From Fonticella tunisiensis (GTDB taxonomy: Bacteria; Bacillota; Clostridia; Clostridiales; Caloramatoraceae), in NCBI RefSeq assembly GCF_004364155.1, contig NZ_SOAZ01000017.1:1-63189 (forward strand): 63,189 nucleotides of DNA, written 5' to 3'. Below, piece after piece: positions 5,275-23,180 of the stretch. Made by a program: the position numbers and the translations under genes. The number at the start of each line of letters is the position of its first letter. The first letter of the stretch is position 1. Below the pieces are notes generated by a model. The model was given only the letters and a program-made list of their open reading frames with translations, was not told the DNA's origin and searched no databases.

Positions 5275-8200
5275 CTATTTATTTCCCTTTCTTCCCTTTA
5301 TATAAGCTATTGTGGTACCTATTGAAATTAGTGAAAGTCCCAATCCTGCCACCGCATTAGCGTCAAACATTCCACCAGTCTTAGGAAGCTTTCCTTCTTT
5401 GTCCTTATCTTTTTCCATATCATTATCACTATCTTCATCATCGCCTGCTGCTTTCTTAAGTTCTGCTATCCTGGTTTCTGCTGCTATAAGCTTATTCAGG
5501 TTTGTTATGTTAGCATTGTTGTTTGCTGCTATTACTAGTTCCCTTGCTTTAGCTACTGCTGCCTCATCTTCCAGAGTTAACTTATCTACCTCTGGAAGGG
5601 CTGCTATTGCATCGATTGCTGCCTTTTCCCTTGCTGCCTGTTCCTCTGCTGCTTTCTTAAGCTCTGCTATTCTATTTTCTGCTGCTACAAGCTTATCCAG
5701 ATTTGTTATGTTAGCATTGTTGTTTGCTGCTATTACTAGTTCCCTTGCTTTAGCTACTGCTGCCTCATCTTCCAGAGTTAGCTTATCTACCTCTGGAAGG
5801 GCTGCTATTGCATCGATTGCTGCCTTTTCCCTGGCAAACTGTGCTGCCTGTTCTTCAGTAATCTTTGCTGCGTTAAAGTTGTCTATCGCCGCCTTCAGTT
5901 CTACAACTGCCGCATCCAATGCTGCCTTATCCGAATTGCTGTCACCTAACACCCCAAGGGCTTTATCAATCGCAGCTTTAAATACTGCCTTTGATCCTTT
6001 ATGATATTCTCCTGCCTTTGTACCTTCAACAGCACTATCATATAGCTTCTCAGCCACTGATATAAGAAGGCTTAGAGACTTGGTTTCTGTTGATGAATTT
6101 TCATCGTATACGTTTACAAGCTTTGCATTAGTGTAGAAAGTATTTAATATTGTTGTGAATGTAGCTCCCTTTGAAGCGAGTCCCTTTGCACCATACTGGC
6201 TCATGCCTACCCCGTGACCATTTCCACCACCATAGAAGGTTACTCCAATAATATTATTGTTTGCATCCTTCTCTATATCAAATGTAAAGAATGCTGATGG
6301 AAGTATACTGTAATTTGCCAGTGTTCCAGTGTATGAAGAGGAGCCGCCAGGTGCCCTGTAAAGTAAAACATCAGAACCAAGTGTATCAGATTTAGTTGGC
6401 CTTATTGTAAACCTTATGTTGAATTCCTTGATTATCTTGTAGGTTCCAGTCGTACCTTCAATTACAAGCTCCATTATATTGCCGCCTTCACCTCGCTTTG
6501 CAACATACATATTCTTAAACTGACCTATGCCTTCAGCAGGAATTGGCCTACTTATAAAGTTTCCACTTTCGTCCTTTGTCAGAATGAATAACGGATCAGC
6601 TGCATATCTTATTTGCAGGTTTTTGTTAACAGTATTTTCAAATTCAGTCTTTGAAAGACCAACCTTCCATCTAAACCATGCCGAATCCAGATCATAGGAT
6701 ATAAGAGAAAGATTTTTATAAAAATCAGCTATAGCCTTTTCGTTCTGAGTATCTATGGTAAGCATCTTTGTATTGTCCGCTGGATCATAAGTATAGCTCT
6801 TTCCAATTAAATATGGAAGTGGTGTTCCTGGGAACTTGTTAGTAACTGGGTCTGACCATACCTCATGCTTGGCAGCACTGTACCCTCCTGAAGTTGAATA
6901 ATATCTTGCGTCAACAAGCTCATTGCCACTCTTCATTATTATACCCCTGGTTTCATTTACTGCCTGTGTGGCTGTTGGGTTTTCAGCACTGTTATTATAA
7001 ACTTGACTTAGTGTACTGTCATCCACATGGAAGCCTCTCTCCGCAAACCTGCTGCTGTAATAGTCAGTAAGCGCATAGGTTCTTGCAGCTACTGCTTGGG
7101 CCTTTAAAGCCTCAAGTCCAAAGGATGCAGGCATTTCACTTGGAACTACCTGGAGGAGATAGTCGTCAAGCTGTACTTCATTTATAAGGTTTAGTTTTGT
7201 ATTATCTTTTGAAAGGGTTATTTCTATTGTTCCTCTGTAACCTGGTGCACCATAACCTCTCTTTAAACTCGGTATAGTGATTTTAGCATCCTTATTTGCT
7301 GGAACTGCATAAAGTCTGTTATCTGTCCTGTAAAGCACTATTCCATTCTTGGTAACTTGAATAGTGTTCTTGTCAACTGTGAAGCTTATTTGTTCGTCAG
7401 CTGCTATATCAAAGCTTCTGTCAGCCTTTTTATCAATTAGCTTAAATCCATCTGCAGCCTTCATATCAACCTGTGTGTAATCAAGAAGTGCTGGATTTGA
7501 TGGATCATTAACATTGCTTCTCAAGCCTATTCTCATGTTATTAACAGGAGTTTTTCCGTCGATAACGATTATATCAATTTTTTCTTCACTGTTAAGATAA
7601 ACCTTTATATTTTCCGCTCCGACCATTACATCAGATAATGACCTTTCAAAGGCTTTTCCATTGATTACCTGATAAACTATATAGTTGTCAGCAAGCTGAA
7701 CTACTCCTCTGTACTCAAGGTCTAATGTCTTGTTTACCGAATCCTTTGCCATTATCTTTTCCTGAAGCTCAAGGGCCATTGGATAGAAGGAAACTGATGG
7801 CTTGCTTTCGTTATGGAGCCTGTCAACGGCTGTTATCTGATAAACATATTCCTTTGAACTATCTGCAGTTTTGTCTACATAATTGAAGGATGTTTGTCCT
7901 GCAGTTCTTCTAACTGTTGCAAGAATATTTGATGGATCTTCAATATCTCCAAGTTTCTTTCCTTCAAATCTATATATTACATAATAGGTTGAATCATTAT
8001 CTGCTGCATCTGTCCAAGATAATTCGATCCCCTTATCCTGAGCCTTCGTGCTGATGACTCTTCCCACCTTGTTTGGTGCCTTATTATCAAGCCATGGCAT
8101 TGTTGGAACAAGAGCTTTAGTATTGAAGTATTCGTTCTTGATTTTGTCTGTTACTCCTAAATTATTAAGTCTTAATTGCTTTAAGCTGAAGAAAGAGCTT

Positions 8201-9483
8201 CCCTTTATTTCAGGATATAGAGCATTAAATTTAAGCTGGTTTCCTATTTCCTCTGGATTCTTCCAGTCAGTATCAGACGAATTAATCTTATAGTTTGCAT
8301 GTCCAATATAGAGCTGGCAGTTGGTTCCCTTAACTACGTTAGCCCACCAGTCAGCAAGTTCTCCATAGGGCGCGGCTGTAGTGCCAAATGCCCAGTAAAT
8401 CTGTGGAGTTATGTAGTCTATAGTTCCTTCCTTAGCCCACTTTCTTGTATCTGCATATATATCGTCATAACTTGCAGAGGAAGTTACAGGTGTATGTGAA
8501 CCTTCTCCCTCAGGACTTCCTGCCGGATGGTTGTCATAATGCCCCCATATACCAAAGGGGCTTACACCAAACTTAACATATGGCTTCTTTGCCTTTATAG
8601 CATTTGAAACCATGCTAATCATGGTATTGATGTTATTTCTTCTCCATTCCTTTATATCAGTAAAGCTTGTCCCATATTTTTCAAAGGTAGCCTTGTCTTC
8701 ACCAGCATCCCCGAAATAGTATGTAACCCCATTTCTAGTTACCTTATAGGGGTAGAAGTAATCATCAAAATGTATTGCATCTACATCGTACTTTTCAACA
8801 ACTTCTACTATAGAATCAGCAATGTACTGCATAACTGCAGGCTCACCTGGATTTAAAAGAAGCTTTCCATCAAACTTAACTACATATTCAGGATGAAGCC
8901 TTGCCCAATTGTTCGGCGCAAGTGTATCAAGCATCTGCTGTATAGTATCGTTTGGTTTATATGTATTTGTTACTCTGTATGGATTGAACCATGCATGGAA
9001 CTCCATGTTCCTTGAGTGAGCTTCCTCAATCATCCATGGCAATGGATCCCAACCTGGATCCTTTCCCTGTGTTCCCGTTAGATATTCAGACCATGGATTT
9101 ATATCTGACTTATAGAAGGCGTCAAGCTTTGGCCTTACCTGAACAGTAACTGCATTCATGTTTAGAGCTTCAAAATCATCTAAAACTTTTCTGAACTCAG
9201 CCTTGAACTCATCCTGGGTTAATCCCTTTTTGCTTGGAAAGTCAATGTTATCAACTGTAGATACCCATGCACTCCTGAATTGTCTCTTTTGATGCGCTGG
9301 ATCCTTTGGAATTTGAATCTGATTATTATGTAATGTGATTGGTGTTTGTGTACCATACTTAAATAGCGGCACCAATTCTCCATCATAGGCTTTAGCTATT
9401 CTTAAATTAGGTGCAAACATTGAAAAGGTCACAACTGAAGCCATGATTAAGGAAATTGATCTTAATTTTTTAAACTGTTTCAA
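5275..9483 (-). CDS. Wall-anchored GHL10 glycosidase-like / SpoIID lytic transglycosylase-like fusion protein
   Basis: Secreted 1402-residue protein of the cell surface. In order: a signal peptide (about 1-32); a GHL10 (DUF187, YngK-like) TIM-barrel glycoside-hydrolase-like domain at about 68-450 with acidic 'AIHFDDYFYPY'; a fibronectin-III-like domain at about 470-570; a SpoIID/LytB domain at about 700-1125 with the VPSEMP motif carrying the Glu essential in SpoIID, followed by ALKAQAVAARTYA; a FIVAR-like helical domain; two nearly identical 67-residue helical repeats; and an LPKTG sorting signal with membrane anchor and basic tail (from about 1366). SpoIID of Bacillus is a peptidoglycan lytic transglycosylase; cleavage by this protein is inferred. 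The TTG start has a GGGGGG ribosome site 7 bases upstream. A sigma-54 promoter precedes it. Confidence 0.88.
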   Translation of the reverse strand: MKQFKKLRSISLIMASVVTFSMFAPNLRIAKAYDGELVPLFKYGTQTPITLHNNQIQIPKDPAHQKRQFRSAWVSTVDNIDFPSKKGLTQDEFKAEFRKVLDDFEALNMNAVTVQVRPKLDAFYKSDINPWSEYLTGTQGKDPGWDPLPWMIEEAHSRNMEFHAWFNPYRVTNTYKPNDTIQQMLDTLAPNNWARLHPEYVVKFDGKLLLNPGEPAVMQYIADSIVEVVEKYDVDAIHFDDYFYPYKVTRNGVTYYFGDAGEDKATFEKYGTSFTDIKEWRRNNINTMISMVSNAIKAKKPYVKFGVSPFGIWGHYDNHPAGSPEGEGSHTPVTSSASYDDIYADTRKWAKEGTIDYITPQIYWAFGTTAAPYGELADWWANVVKGTNCQLYIGHANYKINSSDTDWKNPEEIGNQLKFNALYPEIKGSSFFSLKQLRLNNLGVTDKIKNEYFNTKALVPTMPWLDNKAPNKVGRVISTKAQDKGIELSWTDAADNDSTYYVIYRFEGKKLGDIEDPSNILATVRRTAGQTSFNYVDKTADSSKEYVYQITAVDRLHNESKPSVSFYPMALELQEKIMAKDSVNKTLDLEYRGVVQLADNYIVYQVINGKAFERSLSDVMVGAENIKVYLNSEEKIDIIVIDGKTPVNNMRIGLRSNVNDPSNPALLDYTQVDMKAADGFKLIDKKADRSFDIAADEQISFTVDKNTIQVTKNGIVLYRTDNRLYAVPANKDAKITIPSLKRGYGAPGYRGTIEITLSKDNTKLNLINEVQLDDYLLQVVPSEMPASFGLEALKAQAVAARTYALTDYYSSRFAERGFHVDDSTLSQVYNNSAENPTATQAVNETRGIIMKSGNELVDARYYSTSGGYSAAKHEVWSDPVTNKFPGTPLPYLIGKSYTYDPADNTKMLTIDTQNEKAIADFYKNLSLISYDLDSAWFRWKVGLSKTEFENTVNKNLQIRYAADPLFILTKDESGNFISRPIPAEGIGQFKNMYVAKRGEGGNIMELVIEGTTGTYKIIKEFNIRFTIRPTKSDTLGSDVLLYRAPGGSSSYTGTLANYSILPSAFFTFDIEKDANNNIIGVTFYGGGNGHGVGMSQYGAKGLASKGATFTTILNTFYTNAKLVNVYDENSSTETKSLSLLISVAEKLYDSAVEGTKAGEYHKGSKAVFKAAIDKALGVLGDSNSDKAALDAAVVELKAAIDNFNAAKITEEQAAQFAREKAAIDAIAALPEVDKLTLEDEAAVAKARELVIAANNNANITNLDKLVAAENRIAELKKAAEEQAAREKAAIDAIAALPEVDKLTLEDEAAVAKARELVIAANNNANITNLNKLIAAETRIAELKKAAGDDEDSDNDMEKDKDKEGKLPKTGGMFDANAVAGLGLSLISIGTTIAYIKGRKGNK
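5450..5852 (-). repeat. Two in-frame 201-bp tandem repeats in the surface protein
   Basis: The sequence starting GCTTTCTTAAG at 5450 recurs at 5651, an offset of 201 bp or 67 codons, with only a few base changes. Each unit encodes a helical, Ala/Glu/Lys-rich segment containing AIDAIAALPEVDKLTLEDEA. Confidence 0.9.
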
Positions 9484-9522
9484 AAAAAGACCCCCCTTTA
9501 CATTTTTCTCACCTTAATGTAG

Positions 9523-9539
9523 AAGCAAAAAACATGCCA
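9523..9539 (-). promoter_or_regulatory. Sigma-54 (-24/-12) promoter of the surface hydrolase
   Basis: TGGCATG-TTTT-TTGCTT on the minus strand: GG and GC are exactly 10 bases apart, as sigma-54 requires. It lies about 40 bases before the TTG start. Confidence 0.8.
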
Positions 9540-9576
9540 TGTTTAGTAATCCATGGTAAAACTGATTTCTCCAATA

Positions 9577-9632
9577 TGTGTATCTTTTAAATTTTGAATT
9601 GATACAATTTTGTGAATATAATTTGATACACT
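9577..9632 (-). promoter_or_regulatory. Putative activator half-sites upstream of the sigma-54 promoter
   Basis: Three related half-sites: GTGTATC at 9578-9584, TGATACAA at 9600-9607 and TGATACACT at 9624-9632. The last is identical to the half-sites upstream of the mur PTS operon (18528-18613), suggesting the same LevR-type activator. Confidence 0.55.
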
Positions 9633-9660
9633 TTAGCTGTAGATTGTTTGCTATTATTAA

Positions 9661-9690
9661 AAAACTGCCTGTCAATGGACAAGCAGTTTT
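9661..9690. terminator. Terminator after murQ
   Basis: A 13-bp stem (AAAACTGCCTGTC / GACAAGCAGTTTT, one wobble pair) with an AATG loop, flanked by T/A runs on both sides, lies downstream of murQ. Confidence 0.75.
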
Positions 9691-9748
9691 TTAACTATCT
9701 ATTGATTATTCATTCTATTTTCTAACATTTTTAGAACTTGATACAGTT

Positions 9749-10684
9749 CTAAACTGATGATACACTCAATATTTTATTTTCAAATTCATCCAAAGCCTTT
9801 GCAATATATCCCCTATTTTTCTCCAGGAGCTTTTTAGCCTCTTCCTTAGGAAGCCCTGTCTCAATCATTAATATGCTTAACTTCACATTATATCCTGTTT
9901 CATCAAGTACCTGCTCAATAAGGTTATCCTCAGCCTCGGTTGCAAGCTTCACAATTCTTCTAGCCCTTGCTACAAGCTTTTCGTTGGATGGCTGAACGTC
10001 CACCATAAGATTTCCATAAACCTTCCCAAGCTTTATCATAGCCCCTGTTGAAAGCATGTTGAGAATCATCTTTTGAGCAGTTCCTGCTTTCATCCTTGTT
10101 GATCCCATTATAACCTCCGGGCCTACAACTACGGAAATTGGAATGTCAGCATACTTGGCCATTTCACTTTCAGGATTCATAGTAATACAAAGAACAGCTG
10201 CTCCAACTTCCCTTGCGTATTTCATTGCCCCTATTACATAGGGAGTTCTTCCTGATGCCGCTATTCCACACACTATATCGCTCTCATTGAGGTTCTTTTC
10301 CATAAGTTCCCTCTTGCCAAGCTCGGCATCATCCTCTGCTCCCTCCACTGCCTTGAATATAGCTGTATACCCTCCTGCTATAAGGCCCTGTACAAGTTCA
10401 GAGTCAACTCCATAGGTTGGAGGGCACTCGGAGGCATCGAGTATACCAAGCCTTCCACTGGTACCTGCTCCTACATATATGAGCCTTCCCCCCCTTTGCA
10501 TTCTTTCAGCAATAAGATCAACTGCCCTTGCAATATCCTCTTTGGCTTTTTCAACCGCAAAGGCAACCTTCTTATCCTCTTCATTTATCATGGTTATCAT
10601 CTCAAGGGTGCTTACCCTGTCTATATTCATTGTATTGGGGTTTCTGCTTTCCGTAGCTAGCTTTGCCAAATCCTTTACATCCAT
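9749..10684 (-). CDS. murQ: N-acetylmuramic acid 6-phosphate etherase
   Basis: Cleaves the lactyl ether of MurNAc-6-phosphate to give GlcNAc-6-phosphate and D-lactate in the cytoplasm. The 311 residues are the normal MurQ length. It has the SIS sugar-phosphate fold with the signature '[21 protein letters not shown]', containing a conserved Glu of the active site, and the '[28 protein letters not shown]' region. The ATG has AGGAG upstream. It is the last gene of the mur operon, 19 bases after mupG. Its product feeds NagA, encoded at 21.9-23.1 kb. Confidence 0.97.
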
Positions 10685-10703
10685 TTGCGCCTCTCCTTTT
10701 AAT

Positions 10704-11792
10704 CTACTTCTTCAAAGTAAGTTTAAACTTCTGCCATGGTTCAATGAAATCAAGAAGAAAATGCTCCTCTTCTCTAATCCTTCCAACAACGTTTGTTTTT
10801 CCTGAATTCTTCATATCCTTACGGGCAAGCTGAAGCTCTCCTGCGTAATGTCCATAAAGTGAAGTATCTATAAGTATATCCCCCCTCTTTATATCAGGGG
10901 TGTTGAAGGGTACAAACTCATGTCCTTTGTACTTAACCCTACTCTGAGTTGACCTTATTAAATACTCTGAAACGTCTCCCCTGTTAAAGTGAAGCTCTTC
11001 GAGAACTATCTTTCTTTCTATTTCAGGAATATTATCCACCAGTTCAACCTCAAAGCTCAACATTTCTCTATCCATTTCCCCAAGGGCCTTAAGCTCCTCT
11101 TCAGAGGCAAAGCAGTTGGCTATTATAATATCATCTATAAGCCCAGTTGCCCAGAGATGCTTTGCTTGAACTGTTATTGGAAGCTCCCTGTGCATCTCAA
11201 GGGTGCATAGCCCCTCGTTTACAGGCCATGGCCCAAAGTTTGCTGCGTTTGATGAAATAAAGGCAGCCGTTCTTATTCCAAGCTCTTTGAACTGTCTGCT
11301 GCACTTTATGAAATGTTCATAGCTCAGGCCTGAATATCTATGGGGATAGAAGTTGTGACTTGCAAGCATGTTTTCAAGGTTTGGCCTGTGGCTCATTATA
11401 TTTTCAATATACCTGGTTCCACTGCTCATGTTTATTTCTATCTTGAGTCCAAAGGGGTTGAAGGTCATTATCGACTCCTCAAGCCCGCTAAATCCCATAT
11501 CAAGCCTTATACCATAGGCCTTAAGATCAGCAAAGAAGGTAAGATCCTTATAGCTGATTCCAAGGTCTCCAAACACCCTTGGACTTACGTCTGCAATAAC
11601 CTCCATACCAATTTTGTTAGCCTCAGATATAATATCCTTGAAGTCCTGTACTATCTTTTCCTTGTCCCCTGCTACTGATAAAAGGCAGGTAAACACCCTT
11701 GTAAAGCCATACTTATGTGCAAGCTTTAAGTAAGCTAAATTCTCCTCAAAGCTTGCCTTTTCTGGATATATTGAAATTCCTAACTTTCTCAT
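10704..11792 (-). CDS. mupG: MupG-type 6-phospho-N-acetylmuramidase (DUF871)
   Basis: The DUF871 family includes Staphylococcus aureus MupG, which hydrolyses MurNAc-6-phosphate-GlcNAc, the product of PTS uptake of the disaccharide, to MurNAc-6P and GlcNAc. The 362-residue protein starts [23 protein letters not shown], typical of the family's TIM-barrel N-terminus, and carries the C-terminal small domain ([20 protein letters not shown]). It sits between anmK and murQ with 1-19 base gaps, so the three are surely cotranscribed; the context supports the MupG role over other DUF871 proteins. The ATG has AGGAGGAAG overlapping the end of anmK. Confidence 0.88.
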
Positions 11793-11793
11793 A

Positions 11794-12954
11794 TTACTTC
11801 CTCCTAAAGTAGTTTTTTCCTGGCGTTATATTTCCAAGTATTACTCTCTCCACTGCACCTGTAGCTCCGATTACATTCCCTGCATTTCCATTCAAGGTCT
11901 CATTTGCAAGAACTGCAAAGGCTATAGCTTCCTTTGCATCGGAGGAATATCCCAGGTCTTCCTGAATAAGTACTCTACACTCCGGAAGAAGCTTCTTAAG
12001 CATAGCAACAAGGGTATTGTTGTAGCTTCCTCCTCCTCCAAGAATAACCTCATCTATTTTATGCTTTGGGAATACAAAGCTTCTATAATTTTCTGCAATC
12101 GAATGTGCAGTAAAGGCTGTAACCGTAGCTATAAGATCTACATCCCTTAAATGTCCCCATTTTATAAGAAGCTCGTCCACAAATTGGCTTCCAAAAAGCT
12201 CCCTTCCTGTGGTTTTTGGCGGGGCTGCCTTGATATATGGAATATTCATAAGCTCCTTTAGAAGTTGTTCATTAACCTCCCCCTCTGCCGCAAAGGATCC
12301 ATCCTTGTCATAAGTTAAACCCTTCAGCCTTTTTACAACCTCGTCGATAATCATATTTCCAGGTCCAGTATCAAAGGCGTACATGTCATCAAGTCCACAA
12401 TTTGCCGGAAGAACCGTTACATTGCCTATTCCCCCTATATTTTGAAGAGCCCTGTTCCTGTCTCCTCTGTAAAGTAAATACTCTGTATAGGGAACAAGGG
12501 GTGCCCCCTCTCCTCCGGCTGCCATATCCATTGTTCTAAAGTTTGAAACCACTGTGCAACCTGTTTCGTATGCAATAACAGCCGGCTCCCCTATTTGGAG
12601 AGTTGATTTGACAAAGTTTCCATACCCCCTCGGTATATGGAATACGGTCTGTCCATGGGAACCAATGAAATCCAGTCTGTCAAGCTCAAAGCCCGCTTTC
12701 CTGCATACTCCTTTGACAGCCTCTGCAAATAGATAACCAAGCTTGAAATTAAGGCTGCATACAAGTTCAACGTTTGATTTATCCACCAGGCAGCAGCTTC
12801 TTATCTCGTCCTTAATGTCTTCAGGAAGCTTCTCGTTTGTAAAATCAATAAGTTCAACTTTTGTTTTCTCCCCTGAACCCATGATTTTCACAAGGGCAGC
12901 ATCAATTCCATCCAGGGAAGTCCCCGACATAAGCCCAACTGCGTATTTTTCCAT
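11794..12954 (-). CDS. anmK: Anhydro-N-acetylmuramic acid kinase
   Basis: ATP-dependent kinase that opens 1,6-anhydroMurNAc and phosphorylates it to MurNAc-6-phosphate, the MurQ substrate. The 386 residues show the AnmK N-terminal phosphate motif '[18 protein letters not shown]', '[11 protein letters not shown]', '[12 protein letters not shown]' and '[12 protein letters not shown]'. Length is normal. AnmK acts on products of lytic transglycosylases, which fits the SpoIID domain of the surface protein at 5.3-9.5 kb. It is preceded by a fragment resembling nagK and followed at once by mupG. A 5' fragment of a second anmK copy lies at 23065-23166. Confidence 0.96.
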
Positions 12955-13002
12955 CCCGTCATCACTCCCTTCTATTGTTTCGTTTGTTAATTCAAATGCC
13001 CT

Positions 13003-13086
13003 TTAGTTCAAGGCAGCATTCACAAGTGCCTTCCTAATTATCGCTGTCAAGCCCTGCAATACCTGCATAAATAAAAGGACACAGAA
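13003..13086 (-). pseudogene. Remnant of a BadF-type GlcNAc kinase gene (nagK-like)
   Basis: Between the activator gene and anmK, the minus strand encodes CPFIYAGIAGLD, matching CVFIYAGLAGID of the intact nagK at 23.2-24.1 kb both in protein and, partly, in DNA. A shift of one frame then gives a short Ala/Lys-rich tail before a stop. No start codon or remaining catalytic parts exist. The match is short, so the call is tentative. Confidence 0.45.
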
Positions 13087-13122
13087 CCTCTTGAAAGATA
13101 GGTTTATAAATGTACTTAATCC

Positions 13123-15804
13123 CTACAAATTGACAAGTATTTCAACTATATTTGCTATATCATCATCTGTAAATTGTATATTGAGCTTTTCCTCGAGTCC
13201 CTTAAGACCGTCCTTTAGGTAGTTAAATAAGTCCCTATGGCGTGAAAATATTATTTCCTTGTTTTTGCATTTATCCGTCTCTTCCTTGTTCATGAGCTTT
13301 TGAATCAGACAGCCAAAATGCATCAAAAGTCCATTGAGCTTTTCACTGTCAAGGTGGATATCAAAGGCATACTTCATGGTAGATATAAGTTCCATGAAGG
13401 TATTGATTATATAATCATAATCCTTAAGATCAAGGTACTCCCTGTATACTAACTCCATATTTTTTATAAGTGTTTTATCCTTTATATGGGCGTCAAAATT
13501 TTCGCCCATAAATTCCTTGAAGAATTTATCCATGGGAATGTAGTCTACGCCCTGAATATTTACTTCAAAGGCGCTTATTATTGCTTTAACGTTGGCTTCC
13601 ATTCTTATATTCTCAACAGCCCGTCTAAACTCTTCTTTATCTTTTATACTCAGGTTAATAACGTCATATTGTTCCTTATCATATTTTGTATATATCAATT
13701 CCTTAATTTTTTGAGCAGTACCTTCGCCCGTAGAACAGGCTGTTATTATAACGTCCTTCCTATGTTTAATATCACTTTCAACATTATTTGCAAGATATCT
13801 ACTTTCAAAATCCAAAGATTTCACGATCTCATAAAGGCTTTGGTTCATTAGGGCTTTCCTGGTTGCCTCCAATACCATTACGGTAGTAACCATATCTACA
13901 GCCACTACCTCAATTCCCGTTTCATTCTTAATAATCTTATCGAAGTACTTAAGGGACCCCATATCAACGAGAAGCAGGGCTCCCATTCCCTCATCATGCT
14001 TCTTTACAAGCTCCTTTATCTTTCCCAAAGCAATTTCAGGCTTCATGGACAAAGGCATGTCAAAGCCAATGGTATGGTTGGTATTTAAAAGCTGATTTAC
14101 AACCTCAGCCATAGAGCTGGCGGTACAATTTCCATGCATTGCAACTATTACAGCCACCCTTCCCGTATTCGCTTCCACGTCCGCTGCAAAAAACATGGTA
14201 ATGAAGCCTATCTCATCCAGCGGAACCGCAACCTCATACCTCTGCTCCAGTTTTTCTGCAAGAAGCATGGCAAGCTTAAATTCCTCCGGATATTTCTTTC
14301 TTATCTCATCAAGTTTTGGATTTTCGATTATTTTGCTTGCCCTTGCCCTTCCAAGAAAGGTATCTATATGAACAAGAAGCCCAAGAAATGTATTCCTTGA
14401 TATCTTTCTTTTGAGCCTGTACTCAGCTAAATATATAAAGCTACTTAAAAAGTCATAGAGTTCAGTGCTAACTATGCGCTTTATATCATCCTCACCATGT
14501 TTATCCTCTATATTGGCAAGATACTTATTTAAGAAACTTTCCACCTCATTGGAAACCTTAAGCCTTATTTCATCCTGTCCAAGACCCTTGGCCTTAAGAT
14601 TTTCGCTTCTGTTCTCTATAAATTCATATATATTTGTAGACAGGCTATACTTATCCCCTGGATCTTCATCTGTGGATTCTCCGGAACTTTTTATCTCAAG
14701 CTTGAAACTTCTAGGAGTAACCTTCCTAGCCTTTAAAAGCCCGGCCCTTACCTTTTCACTAAAATCCTCAATGTTAATCCTTACCGTAAAATCAGTAAAC
14801 ATACTCCTTAAAAAAGCCTTGGCACAGGCTATCTGTATATCGCTTTTCAGTTCACCGATGTTATTAAGGCACTCATAGTTTAAAAGCGCAGTTGTGGCTT
14901 CATCCTCCACCTCTATCTTTTTACCTATTCTTTTGGATTCCTCCTCAAAGAAGTTCTCTATTAATTTTAGCCTCTCCTCCTCGCTCCTCTCACGAAGGGG
15001 TGGAAGGGATATGGTTACTGGTATTCTTCTCGTAAAGGTTTTAAGTAGGGCTGAGTTGATATTTTCCGTAGTTGCCGAAATTATCATTACATCTATCTTG
15101 ACTTCCCTGGTACTTCCAAGCGGGGTATACCTTCCCTCATCAATAAGGGTAAAGAGCATCTCCTGTCCCTCGGGAGGAAGCCTGTGCACCTCATCCAAAA
15201 ACAGTATTCCATCCCGTGCCCTTTCTATTATTCCTTCTCTATCCTCCATGGCTCCTGTATAGGCACCTTTTTTTACCCCAAAAAGATGTCCCATAAGGAG
15301 TTGTGGATTATTGGAGTAGTCTGCACAGTTGAAGACCACAAAACGGCTGCTGTCCTTTATAACCTTTACCTCAAGCGCATATTTAAACATACATTTGGCA
15401 AAAAAAGATTTACCAACTCCGGTTTCACCAACTATGAGAGTATGCAGTCCCCTGGGAGGATAAACTATTGCAGCTTTTGCCAGAGCAATGGGGTGCTTTA
15501 GGCTCCTGTCCTTTCCAATTACATTGTCAAACACGTTTGAAATTTCCTTTGGCTTTTTTTCAGTTATTGATTTTGCACTGTTGTCTTTGTTATTTTCTTT
15601 GATAAAATATAGAACAGGTCTACCCTCTCTTTTATCTATTAATCCATCCTTTAATAGCTTTCCAAACTCTCTGGCAACATTCGCTCTTTTCATTCCGAGG
15701 GCATTTGCCACCTCCTCGGTACTAAAGCCTGTCAGTTTTCCAGTTTCTCTAATTTGTTTCAAACATAAATCTCGAAGGATGTTGTAAACCTCTTGATATT
15801 TCAT
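13123..15804 (-). CDS. LevR-type sigma-54 activator with PRD and PTS domains (mur regulator)
   Basis: Transcription activator of sigma-54 promoters controlled by PTS phosphorylation. In order over 893 residues: winged-helix N-terminus (about 1-65); AAA+ sigma-54 domain with Walker A GETGVGKS (126-133), GAYTGA (180-185, the sigma-54 contact loop) and Walker B LFLDEVHR (201-208); PRD1 with a conserved His near 476; an EIIA(Man)-like domain with VAMHGNCTASS near 555; an EIIB-like segment with ACSTGEG near 686; and PRD2 with LLMHFG near 826. It lies inside the PTS-anmK-mupG-murQ gene string. Likely targets are the sigma-54 promoters at 18476-18493 and 9523-9539. ATG start with GGGAGG upstream. 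Confidence 0.93.
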   Translation of the reverse strand: MKYQEVYNILRDLCLKQIRETGKLTGFSTEEVANALGMKRANVAREFGKLLKDGLIDKREGRPVLYFIKENNKDNSAKSITEKKPKEISNVFDNVIGKDRSLKHPIALAKAAIVYPPRGLHTLIVGETGVGKSFFAKCMFKYALEVKVIKDSSRFVVFNCADYSNNPQLLMGHLFGVKKGAYTGAMEDREGIIERARDGILFLDEVHRLPPEGQEMLFTLIDEGRYTPLGSTREVKIDVMIISATTENINSALLKTFTRRIPVTISLPPLRERSEEERLKLIENFFEEESKRIGKKIEVEDEATTALLNYECLNNIGELKSDIQIACAKAFLRSMFTDFTVRINIEDFSEKVRAGLLKARKVTPRSFKLEIKSSGESTDEDPGDKYSLSTNIYEFIENRSENLKAKGLGQDEIRLKVSNEVESFLNKYLANIEDKHGEDDIKRIVSTELYDFLSSFIYLAEYRLKRKISRNTFLGLLVHIDTFLGRARASKIIENPKLDEIRKKYPEEFKLAMLLAEKLEQRYEVAVPLDEIGFITMFFAADVEANTGRVAVIVAMHGNCTASSMAEVVNQLLNTNHTIGFDMPLSMKPEIALGKIKELVKKHDEGMGALLLVDMGSLKYFDKIIKNETGIEVVAVDMVTTVMVLEATRKALMNQSLYEIVKSLDFESRYLANNVESDIKHRKDVIITACSTGEGTAQKIKELIYTKYDKEQYDVINLSIKDKEEFRRAVENIRMEANVKAIISAFEVNIQGVDYIPMDKFFKEFMGENFDAHIKDKTLIKNMELVYREYLDLKDYDYIINTFMELISTMKYAFDIHLDSEKLNGLLMHFGCLIQKLMNKEETDKCKNKEIIFSRHRDLFNYLKDGLKGLEEKLNIQFTDDDIANIVEILVNL

Positions 15805-15841
15805 CTACATCCCTCCCCGTAATTTTTTATCAGACGCGACT

Positions 15842-16135
15842 CTACTTTCTTTTCATGTCGTATTTTACAAGCCCCTTATACTCATCTTTCTCAAGCATAG
15901 TCCTAGTAATTTCAAAAAACATTATACAAAGTACCGCAAATATAATTGACAACCCATACCATATTGCAGGATGTATTTCATCAAATATAATATTAGGTAT
16001 AATCAATACTAAAAAGGCAGAAAAGCCTATTATCCATCTGTTAAGCTTGAACCTTTTCATCATAATGCGCGTAAATTTAACTGAGCCTAAGAGAAGCAGC
16101 ATTAAAAAAAGTATATACAAAAATTTTTCCCACAT
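15842..16135 (-). CDS. Small membrane protein of unknown function in the mur operon
   Basis: About 97 residues with three hydrophobic segments (roughly 3-20, 35-52 and 60-78) separated by basic stretches, ending in a charged tail. I do not recognise a family. The ATG at 16135 has TAGGAG 9 bases upstream; an upstream GTG is less likely. It lies between EIIA and the activator, co-directional with both, so it is probably cotranscribed. An accessory role in transport or signalling is possible but unsupported. Confidence 0.7.
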   Translation of the reverse strand: MWEKFLYILFLMLLLLGSVKFTRIMMKRFKLNRWIIGFSAFLVLIIPNIIFDEIHPAIWYGLSIIFAVLCIMFFEITRTMLEKDEYKGLVKYDMKRK

Positions 16136-16184
16136 AACTATCACTCCTATTATCTTAAAAACATTGGAGAAATCTTAATTTCCA

Positions 16185-16208
16185 GGCAATATCCCTTCGA
16201 ATATTGCC
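16185..16208 (-). other. Intercistronic hairpin between EIIA and the small membrane gene
   Basis: An 8-bp stem GGCAATAT / ATATTGCC with an 8-base loop. It has no U-run, so it may be a processing or partial attenuation site. Confidence 0.4.
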
Positions 16209-16225
16209 CTATAAACCCTGTAAAT

Positions 16226-16531
16226 TTATTTTTCGTGTAAAACCTTGTAAAGCCCCACTATGTGCTCAATAAGGTTCTTTTCTGATATGGCAGTCATGAG
16301 ATGATCCTGTGCATGAACCATTAAAAGATTCATCTGAAGGTTGTGTCCATTTATTTCAGCCTGTATAAGTTTGGTCTGAGTGTTGTGGGCAATATCAAGC
16401 TCCTCCTGGGCCTGCTTCAGAAGCTCCTCTGCCTCCTCGATTTTTCCCTCCTGAGCAGCCTTTATAGCATCGAAGGCAAAGGCCCTAGCGTTTCCACCAT
16501 GGGATATTATTTCAAAGATTTCATTTTCCAT
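16226..16531 (-). CDS. PTS EIIA, lactose/cellobiose family
   Basis: Cytoplasmic phosphocarrier that receives phosphate from HPr and passes it to EIIB. It has 101 residues, normal for the family, all-helical. The phosphorylated His lies in the conserved LLMVHAQDHLM near residue 78, and SHGGNARAFAFDAI is the family's first-helix motif. The ATG at 16531 follows GGAGGTAATTAAT. The intergenic DNA upstream contains the decayed end of a GH4 gene. Substrate specificity lies in the EIIC partner. Confidence 0.93.
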   Translation of the reverse strand: MENEIFEIISHGGNARAFAFDAIKAAQEGKIEEAEELLKQAQEELDIAHNTQTKLIQAEINGHNLQMNLLMVHAQDHLMTAISEKNLIEHIVGLYKVLHEK

Positions 16532-16561
16532 ATTAATTACCTCCACTATTATCATCTAGTA

Positions 16562-16720
16562 TTATTTAAACTGCAGCAAATATTCCCTATTTATATTTAA
16601 CAAATCCTCTAGAAATCCCTTCGCTACCTCATCTAATGGTAACAGCAGATGGCTTACAAAGGTCATTAGAGCTCTGTTTTTGTCACCTTGTACAGCTGCT
16701 GCCACAGCAGCAAGATTTAG
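16562..16720 (-). pseudogene. C-terminal remnant of a GH4 6-phospho-glycosidase gene
   Basis: The minus-strand frame ending at the TAA at 16562-16564 encodes AAVQGDKNRALMTFVSHLLL and then DEVAKG...REYLLQFK, which lines up with the C-terminus of the intact GH4 enzyme at 37.8 kb (AAVTGDYNTALLAMTINPLV ... KEYLPQFF). About 50 codons remain and the frame is closed upstream by a stop. No ribosome site or start is present. So a GH4 gene once lay between EIIC and EIIA here, as GH4 and EIIA still lie together in the second PTS operon. Confidence 0.78.
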
Positions 16721-16724
16721 TTAT

Positions 16725-16751
16725 ATAGCACCGGAAGACTCCCGGTGCTAT
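16725..16751 (-). other. Stem-loop after the EIIC stop codon
   Basis: A perfect 10-bp stem ATAGCACCGG / CCGGTGCTAT with a 7-base loop lies directly downstream of EIIC. It has no U-run, so it is more likely an mRNA-stabilising or processing element than a full terminator. It abuts the GH4 remnant. Confidence 0.55.
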
Positions 16752-16756
16752 GTGTT

Positions 16757-18085
16757 TTACATACTTAATTGGTTATTAGCTGCTGCATGCTCTTCAGCAA
16801 GCATTTTCTTCTCATACATCTTGAAGAATGGGTAGTAGATAACAAGTGCGATTCCTATATTGACAATTGTTAGTATTGCAGCTGCCCAGCTGCCATTGGT
16901 TGCCGCATAGGCTCCAAAGGGTGCTGGAAGAGTCCATGGTGCGAGCACTGTAAACCTGCCTACCAGACCTGCCGCTGATGCAATATAAGATACAATACCC
17001 GTTACAAGTGGTGCAATGATAAATGGTATTGAAAGTATTGGGTTCATAACTATTGGAACACCGAATATAATTGGCTCATTGATGTTGAATATTCCAGGTA
17101 CTATTGAGAATCGTCCAACTCTCTTGAGGTACTCTGATTTTGAGAACACCATTAGTATGCAAAGAGCAAGTGTAGCACCTGATCCTCCGATCCATACGAA
17201 CCACTGGAAGAACTGCTCTGGAACAAGGTTTGGCAACTGAGTGCTTGCTGTGCCAGCTGCAGCTGCCTGTGCATTTTGCTCAAGGGCTACAAGCCAGAAT
17301 GGCCTTAAAATTGAACCTATTACGGATACACCATGTATACCTGCTGCCCACAGTAGTGTTATAAGGAATATTGGAACTATTACTCCCCAGATACTGTTTC
17401 CTGCTACGTTCTGAATTGGTTTGAATACATCCATTAAGAACTTCTGAATGTCAAAGTTAAGCCATACCCTAATAAACCAAACAACTACTATTATAACTGC
17501 TGCCGGAATAAGTGCTTCGAAGGATCTTGCAACTGATTCTGGAACCTGCTCAGGCATTTTAATTGTAACGTGATATTTCTTTAAAAGTCTTAGAGTTTCA
17601 ACTGCAAATATCATGGCAAGTATTGCACCAAACATGCCTGCTCCACCAAGGTTGGCCATTGGAAGTACCCAGCCACCTATTGGAGCTGCACCCTTAACTC
17701 CAGCCTTCTGTGCTGCAGTTAATACTGCATCTACATTAACCGGTATTGTTAAGAGAAGGAATGCAGCAAGGGATAGAACCCCACCTGAAACTCCGTCAAG
17801 CTTGTAGGACTTCGCCAGGCTATACCCCATACCGTAGGCTGCATAAAGCGCCATAAGCCCTGTTGTTAATCTAAAGGGTATAAGTATTTTACCTGCATTT
17901 GGTGCTATAGCATCAGACCATGCCTTAACAGGTGGCTGAGCAACGATGATGAAGAATGAGCCGACTATAATTAAAGATAGTGTGGAGATGATACCGTCTC
18001 TGATAGCTCTCAGATGTCTTTGTTCTGCAAGCTTGGCCATTGGAGGCATAAATTTTGCCTCAATCCACTGAAGAAATTTTTCCAT
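16757..18085 (-). CDS. PTS EIIC, lactose/cellobiose family (putative muropeptide-sugar permease)
   Basis: Membrane permease of 442 residues with about ten hydrophobic segments. Family signatures include the N-terminal 'LAEQRHLRAIRDGI' and the conserved 'PGIFNINEPIIFGVPIVMNP' active-site loop. It is paralogous to the EIIC at 40.3-41.6 kb. Because the operon encodes anmK, mupG and murQ instead of a working GH4 enzyme, the likely cargo is MurNAc-GlcNAc or a related wall disaccharide; this is inference from context. The ATG at 18085 follows GGGGG by 8 bases, and the gene starts 28 bases after EIIB. Confidence 0.93.
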   Translation of the reverse strand: MEKFLQWIEAKFMPPMAKLAEQRHLRAIRDGIISTLSLIIVGSFFIIVAQPPVKAWSDAIAPNAGKILIPFRLTTGLMALYAAYGMGYSLAKSYKLDGVSGGVLSLAAFLLLTIPVNVDAVLTAAQKAGVKGAAPIGGWVLPMANLGGAGMFGAILAMIFAVETLRLLKKYHVTIKMPEQVPESVARSFEALIPAAVIIVVVWFIRVWLNFDIQKFLMDVFKPIQNVAGNSIWGVIVPIFLITLLWAAGIHGVSVIGSILRPFWLVALEQNAQAAAAGTASTQLPNLVPEQFFQWFVWIGGSGATLALCILMVFSKSEYLKRVGRFSIVPGIFNINEPIIFGVPIVMNPILSIPFIIAPLVTGIVSYIASAAGLVGRFTVLAPWTLPAPFGAYAATNGSWAAAILTIVNIGIALVIYYPFFKMYEKKMLAEEHAAANNQLSM

Positions 18086-18113
18086 AAACAAATCCCCCTT
18101 TCCTATTTACAAA

Positions 18114-18422
18114 TTACTTTACATGCTTTTTTATTTGTTCCAGGACCTTAGGAGCGCCTATTGGAGTGTATCCCATAGGTACTATAAGCTCGATTGGAAC
18201 ATTAGCACTTGAGGCCTGCTCCTTAAACACATCCATTCTATGCTTTACTTGTGGCGCAACTATAGCAAGGTCATATCCTCCTGTCTTGAGCTCCTCTTCG
18301 AACTCCCCGGTACCTACCGCTTTGATCTCGAGGGGAAATCCCTGCTTATCCGCTTCCTGCTTTATAGCCTTAACGACTATAGCACTTGACATTCCGCCGG
18401 AACAAACCATTAGAACCTTCAT
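18114..18422 (-). CDS. PTS EIIB, lactose/cellobiose family
   Basis: Cytoplasmic phosphotransfer protein, 102 residues, with the phosphorylated Cys in the N-terminal P-loop 'MVCSGGMSSAIVVKAI'. First gene of the mur PTS operon, about 55 bases downstream of a sigma-54 promoter. It differs clearly from the two EIIB proteins of the other PTS locus (37.2 and 41.7 kb), which suggests a different substrate branch. ATG start with GAGGTAATTTAT upstream. Confidence 0.93.
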   Translation of the reverse strand: MKVLMVCSGGMSSAIVVKAIKQEADKQGFPLEIKAVGTGEFEEELKTGGYDLAIVAPQVKHRMDVFKEQASSANVPIELIVPMGYTPIGAPKVLEQIKKHVK

Positions 18423-18475
18423 ATAAATTACCTCCTATGTTTTAAATATGATTTCTATTTTTCAGTATTAATTAT

Positions 18476-18493
18476 AAGCAATAACTGTGCCAA
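18476..18493 (-). promoter_or_regulatory. Sigma-54 (-24/-12) promoter of the mur PTS operon
   Basis: TTGGCACAGTTATTGCTT on the minus strand with GG and GC 10 bases apart, close to the sigma-54 consensus. It lies upstream of the EIIB gene. Confidence 0.88.
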
Positions 18494-18527
18494 GTTATAA
18501 ACAAGCTGATTAATCAAGCTTTTAAAG

Positions 18528-18613
18528 ATAGTGTATCATTTATTATTTCCCTTGATACACTATTTTGTTCTAAAAAATGGCATAGTGTATCATAAATATG
18601 ATACACTATGCCA
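18528..18613 (-). promoter_or_regulatory. Upstream activating sequences for the LevR-type regulator
   Basis: Two dyads of the same half-site. The first pairs ATAGTGTATCA at 18528-18538 with TGATACACTAT at 18553-18563. The second is a perfect 16-bp inverted repeat at 18578-18613 with a 4-base centre. They lie 35-120 bases upstream of the -24 element, where sigma-54 activators normally bind. Confidence 0.78.
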
Positions 18614-21155: not shown

Positions 21156-21902
21156 TTATCCTGTTATATCCGATTCGGAAAGCTTTGATGCTGCTTCTTT
21201 ATCCAGTATGAAAGTTACATCTGGATGAAGCTGAAGTATTGAAGCCGGAACATCCGGTGTTATTCCTCCATGTACCGCTTCCCTGATTATGTCTGCCTTG
21301 CCTGTGCCTGAAGCAAGTAAAATAATCTTTCTAGCGTGCATTATAGTTTTAATTCCCATGCTTATGGCCCTTGTTGGGACTTCCTCAATGGAATTAAAGA
21401 ACCTTGAATTGGCTTGAATTGTCTCTTCATCCAGATTTACCATATGGGTTTCTGCTTCAAATTTTACATCGGGTTCGTTAAATCCTATGTGGCCATTGTT
21501 TCCTATACCAAGCACCTGTAAGTCTATTCCTCCCGCCTCCTTAATCTTCCTTTCATATTCCTTACATTCTCTGGCAACATCCTCCGCCATGCCATCCGGT
21601 ATATGGACATTATTAAGGTCTATGTTTACATGCTTGAAGAGGTTTTCCATCATGTAGTAGTAATAGCTCTGGGGATTATCCTTACTAAGCCCTAAGTACT
21701 CGTCAAGGTTAAAGGTCTTAACATCCTTGAAATCAAATGTTCCCTCGTTGTAAAGCCTTACAAGTTCCTTATAAAAACCTACAGGCGTTCCTCCAGTTGC
21801 AAGGCCAAGTATACTATCAGGCTTGAGTATAAGCTGACTGGCAACCATCCTTGCTGCAACTTTGCTCATCTCATCATAATCTTTAGTAACTATAATTCTC
21901 AT
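21156..21902 (-). CDS. nagB: Glucosamine-6-phosphate deaminase
   Basis: Converts glucosamine-6-phosphate to fructose-6-phosphate and ammonia. 248 residues, normal for the short Gram-positive form. Seen motifs are GLATGGTPVGFY near the N-terminus, catalytic Asp in FNLDEYLGL, and GIGNNGHIGFNEP with the active-site His. The ATG at 21902 has AGGAG at suitable distance; a GTG nine bases upstream is less likely. It follows nagA by 11 bases, in the operon nagK-nagA-nagB, and completes the route from wall amino sugars to glycolysis. Confidence 0.97.
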   Translation of the reverse strand: MRIIVTKDYDEMSKVAARMVASQLILKPDSILGLATGGTPVGFYKELVRLYNEGTFDFKDVKTFNLDEYLGLSKDNPQSYYYYMMENLFKHVNIDLNNVHIPDGMAEDVARECKEYERKIKEAGGIDLQVLGIGNNGHIGFNEPDVKFEAETHMVNLDEETIQANSRFFNSIEEVPTRAISMGIKTIMHARKIILLASGTGKADIIREAVHGGITPDVPASILQLHPDVTFILDKEAASKLSESDITG

Positions 21903-21913
21903 AGCACACACTC

Positions 21914-23059
21914 CTATCTTTTATTAAATACTGTATTACCTTTTACTATTGTAGTTATTGCATTAAATTCATCATCGAATATTACAAGGTCTGCATCCTT
22001 GCCTTTTTTTATGCTTCCTTTAACATCATCCATACCAATAACCCTTGCAGGGTTTAATGATGCCATAGCGACAGCCTCATAAACCTCTAAATCGGTGTTA
22101 TCAAGCATGTTCTTTATAGCTCTGTTCAAAGTAAGGACGCTTCCTGCTAAAGTGCCATCTTCAAGCCTTGCAGCCCTATCCTTCACAACAACCTTCTGTC
22201 CACCGAGCTCATATACTCCATCCTCCATGCAGCCTGCCATCATACAGTCAGTTATGAGCACCACCTTATCATTTCCCTTTATATCCTTTAATATCTTAAA
22301 CACTGCTGGATGAACATGAATGGTATCTGCTATAAGCTCGCAGGTTATATTGCTTCTAAAGGCTGCACCAACGATTCCAGGCTCCCTGTGGTTTAATGGT
22401 GTCATGGCGTTGAATGTGTGGGTTACATGCCTAACTCCCCTTTCAATTGCCTCCATGGCCTGTGCATAGGTAGCATTTGAATGTCCAATAGAGAGTACTA
22501 TTTCTTCATGTTCCTTCATTTTATCAATAAATTTGTGATTTTCATCCTTTTCCGGCGCAAAGGTCAATATTTTTATTACATCAAGATAATCCTTTATAAA
22601 ATCATAATCGGGCTCTACGATATACTTTGGATTTTGGGCTCCCTTATATTTTTCATTTATAAATGGACCTTCCATATGGGTTCCCAGGACCTGTGCCCCT
22701 GGCATATTTATCTTCATCGCTTCCCTTACAGCATCAAAGGCTCTATAAATTGACTCCCTGTCCATAGTCATGGTCGTCGGAAGAAAGCTTGTAACTCCAT
22801 TACCGGCAATAGACCTGCTTATAGTTTCAAGGGCTTCCATTGTTCCCTCCATGGTGTCCCTTCCTCCTGATCCATGTATGTGCACATCTATTAAACCCGG
22901 TGAAACATAATTGTCCTCTGCATCGATAATCTCCAAATTTTCAAAATCGTTAAGCGCTTCCCTGTCTACTATACCATTTATTTTTTCATCGAACAAGAGT
23001 GCCTTTCCTGAGATCACCTCATTTTCCATGATTATTTTACCATTGATTATGGCCTTCAT
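21914..23059 (-). CDS. nagA: N-acetylglucosamine-6-phosphate deacetylase
   Basis: Metal-dependent amidohydrolase giving glucosamine-6-phosphate and acetate. About 381 residues. Metal and substrate motifs visible: HIHGSGG, HMEGPF, IGHSNA, THTFNAM and catalytic Asp in ITDCMMAG. The likely start is the ATG at 23059 with GGGGAG upstream; a GTG at 23068 is also in frame. The 5' region overlaps the end of an anmK-derived fragment that now supplies its ribosome site. Its substrate comes from MurQ or NagK. Confidence 0.97.
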   Translation of the reverse strand: MKAIINGKIIMENEVISGKALLFDEKINGIVDREALNDFENLEIIDAEDNYVSPGLIDVHIHGSGGRDTMEGTMEALETISRSIAGNGVTSFLPTTMTMDRESIYRAFDAVREAMKINMPGAQVLGTHMEGPFINEKYKGAQNPKYIVEPDYDFIKDYLDVIKILTFAPEKDENHKFIDKMKEHEEIVLSIGHSNATYAQAMEAIERGVRHVTHTFNAMTPLNHREPGIVGAAFRSNITCELIADTIHVHPAVFKILKDIKGNDKVVLITDCMMAGCMEDGVYELGGQKVVVKDRAARLEDGTLAGSVLTLNRAIKNMLDNTDLEVYEAVAMASLNPARVIGMDDVKGSIKKGKDADLVIFDDEFNAITTIVKGNTVFNKR

Positions 23060-23064
23060 AAATA

Positions 23065-23166
23065 TCACGCTCCCCGTTTTTTCATTGTCCTTCTTATCCT
23101 AACCAGGGCTGCATCTACACCATCAAGGAATGTCTCTGACATTAACCCCACAGCATACTTTTCCAT
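23065..23166 (-). pseudogene. 5' remnant of a second anmK gene
   Basis: A 33-codon frame starts [23 protein letters not shown], where position 11 is Glu and residue 13 is Phe. The intact AnmK starts [24 protein letters not shown]. The phosphate motif is mutated (GTSLDG became ETFLDG) and the frame ends after a basic tail, overlapping the start of nagA. It lies between nagK and nagA. It may still be translated as a leader peptide, but no kinase could result. Confidence 0.87.
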
Positions 23167-23180
23167 ACGATTCTCCGCCC

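Follow-up and report, generated by a model that had tools for sequence, protein, structure and literature searches.

Introduction

The locus considered here, from Fonticella tunisiensis, combines a phosphotransferase system (PTS) operon carrying N-acetylmuramic acid (MurNAc) enzymes with a surface hydrolase gene and a gene for a LevR-type activator; its closest described relatives are the regulons of CelR and LevR. With these it shares the domain order of the activator, a GAYTGA-type loop, candidate PTS-phosphorylated residues, a multi-site sigma-54 promoter and an adjoining PTS operon, whereas its targets (MurNAc enzymes and a wall hydrolase) and its half-site, GTGTATCA, are different. In the LevR-levDEFG-sacC system, as listed in Table 1 of a 2019 reconstruction, an activator with PTS regulation domains (PRDs) likewise couples a PTS to a polymer-degrading enzyme through sigma-54 (PMC6615313). 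The polymer there is levan and a single operon is listed, whereas here the polymer would be peptidoglycan and there are two promoters. The window, by which we mean the whole stretch of DNA analysed, comprises 63,189 nt of contig NZ_SOAZ01000017.1; the host genome is 3.1 Mb in 64 contigs.

Among systems for wall sugars, the mupG-murQ-murP-murR operon of Staphylococcus aureus also joins MupG and MurQ to a PTS; there, MurP has EIIB and EIIC domains and MurR is described as a putative regulator (PMC6262408), whilst the present locus encodes a three-protein PTS of the lactose family, AnmK and a sigma-54 activator. In the passages of the literature cited here, wall-sugar recovery is tied to MurR-type regulators. 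The CELO2 operon of Bacillus coagulans (celR-celB-celA-DUF871-celC) places a celR regulator and a MupG-family gene with a lactose-family PTS; MurQ, AnmK and a hydrolase are missing from the operon as listed, and the main text of its description mentions neither sigma-54 nor LevR (PMC6271610). The hydrolase resembles Cwp19 of Clostridioides difficile, likewise a surface protein with a GHL10 catalytic domain, which differs in having CWB2 repeats and, in its described layout, no SpoIID domain (PMC6016235). In a C. difficile rpoN mutant, cwp19 expression goes up, not down.

None of the 39 groups in Table 1 of the Clostridiales sigma-54 reconstruction of Nie et al. (2019) is for MurNAc or peptidoglycan, and the terms muramic, MurQ, MurNAc and peptidoglycan are absent from its main text, supplements aside (PMC6615313). 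A 2011 survey tied sigma-54 to the cell exterior generally and LevR/CelR-like activators to cell-wall saccharides (PMC3162934). No sigma-54, LevR or PRD regulon with MurQ, MurNAc or MupG was found among the matches listed in the open-access literature, judged by title and start of the abstract. We describe here a candidate activator whose orthologues travel with one signature, TGTATCA-type half-sites that precede a sigma-54 promoter by approximately 60 and 38 bp; at this locus the signature marks two putative promoters, those of the PTS-mupG-anmK-murQ operon and of the surface hydrolase. On the sequence evidence, we consider it probable that the two constitute a PTS-inducible PRD/sigma-54 regulon for peptidoglycan sugars. 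The parts are all of known kinds; their assembly is new.

Results and Discussion

Two sigma-54 promoters with phased half-sites

A first-pass annotation of the window had proposed two sigma-54 promoters fitting TGGCAYR-N4-TTGC, with shared upstream half-sites. Both promoters match the pattern exactly, and the elements at them are as follows, with distances given as the number of bases between a half-site and the TGGC of the -24 box.

9525..9539, minus strand: sigma-54 (-24/-12) promoter of the hydrolase, TGGCATGTTTTTTGC, exact motif
9578..9631, minus strand: three phased candidate activator half-sites of the hydrolase promoter, at 38 (AGATACAC), 60 (TTGTATCA) and 84 (GTGTATCA) bp
9739..9765, minus strand: two distal half-sites (CTGTATCA and GTGTATCA), at 199 and 218 bp, just past murQ and in its end
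18478..18492, minus strand: sigma-54 promoter of the PTS operon, TGGCACAGTTATTGC, exact motif
18531..18560, minus strand: promoter-proximal dyad GTGTATCA-N14-TGATACAC of the PTS operon, 60 and 38 bp upstream of TGGC
18585..18606, minus strand: distal dyad GTGTATCA-N6-TGATACAC of the PTS operon, at 106 and 92 bp

The exact promoter motif occurs 25 times in the whole genome, against once for the reversed pattern; two further copies in the window (37510 and 42044) are part of another PTS cluster. The absence of rpoN had been named as one ground on which the proposal could fall; the genome has a single clear rpoN gene (C25, E 6.9e-60), and that ground is gone.

With up to one mismatch allowed, half-sites at the hydrolase promoter lie in the same direction at 218, 199, 84 and 60 bp and in the opposite direction at 38 bp, and those at the PTS promoter in the same direction at 193, 106 and 60 bp and in the opposite direction at 92 and 38 bp. 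Genome-wide there are 25 copies of AGTGTATCA, compared with 8 of its backward control; the stretches before the hydrolase and PTS promoters account for six of these copies, including one within the murQ end. The proposed sharing of half-sites is real; what is common to the two promoters, however, is an 8-mer at conserved spacing, not merely TGATACACT. When the 300 bp upstream of each promoter were shuffled 20,000 times by dinucleotides, two phased half-sites never arose (0/20,000), as against three observed at the hydrolase promoter and two at the PTS promoter; five half-sites at any position in those 300 bp, the number at both promoters, arose once and twice. The distal PTS dyad lies within a hairpin (18577-18614, minus strand) with a perfect 17-bp stem and T residues after it, which may double as the terminator of the upstream gene.

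A genome-wide search for the promoter motif together with dyads (at most two mismatches overall, spacer 12-15), as the first-pass annotation had suggested, finds the dyad at these two of the 25 exact motifs alone; stray one-mismatch half-sites, one or two each, occur at 5 of the other 23. The composite pattern TGTATCA-N45-65-sigma54 also singles out only these two promoters in the genome, with no match for its backward control. Relaxed promoter patterns gave nothing phased near other AGTGTATCA sites (14 regions of 809 bp and a tandem pair on C15, leaving out the window sites 6380, 8921 and 39720, which lie away from the promoters), and returned two weak promoter matches, TGGTAGAATCTCTTGT and TGGCAAACAGCCTTGA. 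The tandem AGTGTATCA repeats follow an alpha-amylase-like gene (L136 1630-1650; G000:C15:44629-44650), with no sigma-54 site found nearby.

The signature at PTS operons of related genomes

In five of the 80 loci obtained by a scan for MupG relatives, the activator has a close orthologue: L003 (Caloramator proteoclasticus), L005 (a metagenome-assembled Caloramator sp.), L007 (C. algidicarnis), L008 (C. rhizosphaerae) and L010 (C. ganghwense). Across 225 genomes of the order, with four candidates scored in each, 13 gave the activator at E <= 1e-250, the five loci above being among them by their coordinates. Two further genomes, G023 and G122, carry a frame-shifted activator, giving at least 15 activator genomes, a lower bound since frame-shifted copies can escape the search. 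Each of the 15 has a sigma-54-like site before EIIB, with half-sites (one mismatch at most) at 57-60 and 37-40 bp; the weakest of these promoters is that of C. ganghwense, whose -12 element reads TTGA.

Five genomes have the same PTS and small membrane protein and no intact activator, one of them (G194) with a short activator-like stretch. In these no sigma-54 match was found upstream of EIIB, nor, in the 400 bp before EIIB and before the first operon gene, any half-site bar one GTGTATAA before murQ (G188). A further 17 MupG loci (L013, L017, L020, L023, L026, L027, L030, L033, L036, L038, L043, L044, L045, L057, L059, L066 and L067) have LevR-like genes from different clades, and many of these loci show sigma-54-like sites and no MurQ in the stretch; the phased pair is absent at the sigma-54 sites found there. 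Because LevR-like genes of other clades occur at such loci, sigma-54 control of MupG-PTS operons may extend beyond this activator.

The signature at hydrolase genes of related genomes

Matches to the hydrolase (E <= 1e-60, only the two best candidates scored per genome) were obtained in 77 of the 225 genomes, and promoters were scanned at the 30 best loci, one per genome. A sigma-54 site with half-sites stands at five of the 30, namely those of the window, C. proteoclasticus, G021, G023 and G094, all of which are activator genomes. At the 23 hydrolase loci of genomes where the activator went undetected, three of which match only the SpoIID part, the signature was not found. Eight activator genomes have a GHL10 match, five of them with the signature before the gene, and in the other seven no GHL10 match was found at the cut-off.

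Half-sites in C. proteoclasticus, G021 and G023 lie at 84 and 61 bp before the hydrolase gene, the second of G021 with two mismatches, and the gene itself is directly upstream of EIIB in C. proteoclasticus and beyond murQ in the window. In G094, which belongs to another family, the hydrolase gene is on contig C100, 25 kb from the nearest end, whilst C94 and C95 carry the PTS genes; the hydrolase promoter has CTGTATCA at 74 bp and exact GTGTATCA at 61 and 167 bp. That this unlinked gene has kept the signature is the best single argument for co-regulation. The G094 frame is 528 aa long with GHL10 only, and similarity continues across two stop codons; the gene may be truncated. In G023 (L222 11614 and 13485) the hydrolase promoter and its half-sites are duplicated 1.9 kb apart, with no open reading frame of 150 aa or more between them.

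Run on the activator genomes other than G122 (14 of 15), the composite pattern gave 22 matches: 12 PTS promoters, 4 hydrolase promoters, the G023 duplicate and 5 others, the fifth of these being G023 2705079. The remaining four were rejected as further members, one lying inside an ABC-transporter gene, another inside a MATE-like transporter gene, and two preceding butanediol-dehydrogenase-like genes with an activator of their own (names assigned by eye). Also rejected were two extra matches to the 84-bp pattern in seven genomes, one near a contig end and one upstream of a mannose-type PTS that is accompanied by a LevR-like gene of its own (again named by eye). The earlier proposal that one PTS-sensing activator governs both hydrolase and PTS holds in so far as phased sites accompany every PTS promoter of the activator genomes and most of their GHL10 genes; it does not hold universally, since only a few lineages show the putative link to the hydrolase.

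The LevR-type activator

The activator gene had been placed between the two promoters, and it lies there:

13123..15804, minus strand: LevR-type activator with N-terminal helix-turn-helix, AAA+ domain with GAYTGA, PRD1, EIIA-Man, EIIB-like domain and PRD2

Pfam matches comprise Sigma54_activat (E 2.5e-41), EIIA-man (E 3.7e-10) and two PRD stretches; the EIIB-like stretch, with Cys690, was recognised by eye. The GAFTGA-type loop reads GAYTGA in the window protein and in 6/6 orthologues. Candidate phosphorylation residues, matched to CelR by domain, not by alignment, are H479 (PRD1), H557 (EIIA), C690 (EIIB-like), H817 (PRD2) and H829 (PRD2); none of the five varies among seven aligned orthologues. 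The seven orthologues form a clade with support 100/100, separate from the second LevR-type protein of the window, in a tree built from 29 activators after five of 34 rows, being fragments or duplicates, had been dropped; orthologues score 1148-1963 bits, other activators at most 709.

As reported for Bacillus thuringiensis CelR, mutation of EIIA-Man His546 or EIIB Cys682 lowered expression and mutation of PRD2 His839 raised it; in LevR and Clostridium acetobutylicum CelR, inhibition comes from phosphorylation of a histidine of PRD2 by EIIB (PMC10864463). On this precedent, the signal at the present locus would most likely be a drain of phosphate from EIIB by incoming sugar. Elsewhere in the set, a 1015-aa LevR-like activator (G000:C1 around 25799; L002, L139 and L175) matches the sigma-54 DNA-binding domain model at positions 104-160 (E 2.4e-7) and looks as if it bears an RpoN-box-like stretch.

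The PTS operon and its MurNAc enzymes

The remaining genes of the operon, the hairpin that follows it and the putative partner genes of the pathway are listed below.

18114..18422, minus strand: PTS EIIB (PF02302)
16757..18091, minus strand: PTS EIIC (PF02378; TIGR00410 over cut-off)
16226..16555, minus strand: PTS EIIA, lactose/cellobiose family (PF02255)
15842..16135, minus strand: 97-aa membrane protein, conserved between EIIA and activator (no Pfam/NCBIfam family)
11794..12954, minus strand: anmK, anhydro-N-acetylmuramic acid kinase (NF007142, 596 bits, cut-off 435)
10704..11792, minus strand: mupG, 6-phospho-N-acetylmuramidase family (PF19200, E 8.6e-98; PF05913, E 1e-40; PDB 1x7f, E 2.4e-132)
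9749..10684, minus strand: murQ, N-acetylmuramic acid 6-phosphate etherase (TIGR00274 over cut-off)
9656..9695, minus strand: strong hairpin with T-rich arm in the murQ-hydrolase gap (-23 kcal/mol, z -6.9)
21156..24098, minus strand: nagB, nagA and a BadF-type N-acetylglucosamine (GlcNAc)/MurNAc kinase (murK-like, PF01869; nagA and nagB named by eye)

EIIB, EIIC, EIIA, the 97-aa protein, the activator, AnmK, MupG and MurQ are all encoded in the same direction. Both the MupG_N and MupG_C domains are present in the mupG product, and the gene sits beside MurQ and a PTS. The hairpin after murQ is likely a terminator, and is not among the sites of the terminator scan; given its strength, the hydrolase gene probably needs a promoter of its own. 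Another hairpin, without a T-tract, follows EIIC. MupG, MurQ and AnmK with a PTS would fit uptake of wall sugars, and AnmK in particular would fit anhydro-sugars left by lytic transglycosylases. S. aureus MupG is reported to cleave MurNAc6P-GlcNAc (PMC6262408). The nagB, nagA and murK-like genes are putative pathway partners: no exact sigma-54 motif precedes these genes in the window, and in several relatives the cluster itself contains murK or nagA/nagB. A peptidoglycan substrate, as first suggested, is supported by the protein families, namely GHL10 (best PDB match Cwp19), SpoIID, MupG, MurQ and AnmK.

No Pfam or NCBIfam model scores above cut-off against the 97-aa membrane protein, whose gene separates EIIA from the activator in 10/10 aligned loci and whose sequence has NRW and IMFFE..R invariant. 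Matches occur in 47 of the 225 genomes at E <= 0.001 and in 20 at E <= 1e-13; in all 20, made up of the 15 with the activator plus five that lack an intact one, the best match adjoins this EIIA, whilst ten weaker matches inspected were beside none of the genes tested. Its position beside EIIA even where no intact activator is present indicates that it belongs with the PTS and not with the regulator, and makes it a new candidate PTS component.

The surface hydrolase

5275..9483, minus strand: surface hydrolase of 1402 aa, TTG start, with GHL10 (69-405), SpoIID/LytB (766-1123), C-terminal repeats and LPKTGG

The hydrolase matches PF02638 (E 7.3e-82), PF08486 (E 8e-28) and TIGR02669 (E 2.1e-54; 185 bits, cut-off 83), and falls below the stage II sporulation protein D equivalog TIGR02870 (130.6 bits, cut-off 234.75). 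The best PDB match is Cwp19 (5oq2, E 1.8e-105 over 64-456); residues 1136-1216 match 2jnk (E 5e-6). A signal-like N-terminus and the LPKTGG anchor signal were both recognised by eye. SpoIID is a lytic transglycosylase, and VVPSEMPASF of the hydrolase aligns with VVASEMNASF of 4rwr, the Glu of this SEM motif presumably being catalytic. The GHL10-SpoIID combination was seen in 4 of the 225 genomes (G000, G020, G021 and G023), with a broken frame in G021 and G023. GHL10 was rejected as a general neighbour of MupG, being found at 3 of the 80 MupG loci (L035, L037 and L041), with L003 holding the later part of the hydrolase; the neighbourhood is suggestive, not strong. At locus L224 of G138, a genome in which the activator went undetected, a relative (57%) of the SpoIID part of the hydrolase lies on the same strand approximately 3 kb past murQ and a distant MupG.

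Escherichia coli DigH is, we assume, also of the GHL10 family. Cwp19, in which GHL10 is the catalytic domain and acts as a lytic transglycosylase, yields anhydro-muropeptide together with reducing-end products, and acts in autolysis (PMC6016235). DigH is described as a hydrolase of denuded glycans, either a glucosaminidase or a muramidase, which works on septal glycans and can free anhydro-muropeptides from strand ends (PMC12288456). Both precedents, along with recovery of its own turnover products by S. aureus through MurP-MupG (PMC6262408) and the LPKTGG anchor, which holds the enzyme on its own wall, favour a role for the same regulon in own-wall recycling. The hydrolase would then act as an autolysin in turnover or in the separation of cells, with the PTS recovering the fragments, in a manner comparable to Atl-MurP-MupG of S. 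aureus. This is a serious possibility, although a substrate-induced autolysin would be self-amplifying, and PTS gating fits a nutrient response better.

Weighing joint control and substrate

Several observations weigh against a regulon of this extent and substrate. The near half-sites TTGTATCA (60) and AGATACAC (38) of the hydrolase promoter each carry one mismatch; the 38-bp inverted half-site is missing at the hydrolase promoters of C. proteoclasticus, G021, G023 and G094; and three activator genomes (G137 and G181, both among the 30 loci scanned, and G214, whose GHL10 gene is a distant one) have a GHL10 gene without the signature. Genomes with the activator and PTS are kin, so the counts are not independent. 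A weak terminator-like site at 12997-13015 and sigma-70-like sites around the activator-anmK gap tell against the assumed read-through to anmK-mupG-murQ; terminator-like sites in the region number 9, against 10.4 in shuffles, and the sigma-70-like class is also near shuffle level. Lytic transglycosylases leave GlcNAc-anhMurNAc, whereas MupG cuts MurNAc6P-GlcNAc, so that a glucosaminidase or a broader MupG would be needed. In the account of B. thuringiensis CelR, mutation of PRD1 His467 or PRD2 His822 had no effect (PMC10864463), and B. coagulans CELO2, with its DUF871 (MupG-family) gene, is ascribed to cellobiose (PMC6271610).

The mismatched and missing half-sites, and the three genomes with a GHL10 gene lacking them, would suit an activator that controls the PTS operon alone, the hydrolase sigma-54 promoter having another activator and its half-sites being coincidence or relics. 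We think this improbable, as phasing at 84 and 60-61 bp is common to the window, C. proteoclasticus, G023 and partly G021, exact GTGTATCA recurs at 61 bp before the unlinked G094 gene, and neither the shuffles nor the hydrolase loci without a detected activator reproduce the arrangement.

The PTS subunits, which are of the lactose/cellobiose/chitobiose family and fall below the equivalog cut-offs of its named members in the profile listing, together with the proposal that DUF871 of CELO2 is a 6-phospho-beta-glucosidase (PMC6271610), are compatible with an operon for another beta-linked disaccharide (cellobiose or chitobiose), to which the MurNAc enzymes would be incidental. Such a substrate is unlikely: MurQ and AnmK are without known role in these sugars, at least one of MupG, MurQ and AnmK adjoins this PTS in 12/12 loci checked, and a second cluster in the window (37783-44977; GH4 enzyme, YdjC and its own LevR-type gene) fits it better. 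With its promoter motifs at 37510 and 42044, both without the dyad described above, this second sigma-54 PTS cluster extends over 37510-44977 and includes an EIIC gene. Judged by eye, two nearly identical PTS EIICB genes (55588-57465 and 59893-61284, minus strand) flank a PRD regulator; the second lacks the C-terminal part, and the duplication is probably recent.

Proposed mechanism and implications

For the two-promoter regulon we propose the following mechanism. Without substrate, phosphorylated EIIB would phosphorylate PRD2 of the activator and keep the activator inactive; on import of wall sugars by the PTS, the EIIB phosphate would go to the sugar and the activator would be freed. It would then bind the half-sites and drive sigma-54 RNA polymerase at both promoters. 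Outside the cell the hydrolase would cut more glycan, its GHL10 and SpoIID domains giving anhydro ends, and MupG, AnmK and MurQ, with the kinase-NagA-NagB route, would convert the pieces to GlcNAc-6-P for central metabolism. More tentatively, the regulon may serve self-amplifying foraging on wall material through a PTS that has the 97-aa protein as a hitherto unrecognised subunit, as opposed to simple recycling of the cell's own wall: imported traces would induce the hydrolase, with its two domains of lytic-transglycosylase type, and AnmK, MupG and MurQ would consume the anhydro-sugars released.

The promoter observation is real, and the central proposal of a shared activator appears well supported by the conserved signature. 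The defined half-site and its spacing allow members of the regulon to be predicted from sequence. If the proposal is true, control of the cutting enzyme by a PTS-sensing PRD/sigma-54 activator would place peptidoglycan among the regulated, inducible nutrients of clostridia, handled much like levan or cellobiose.

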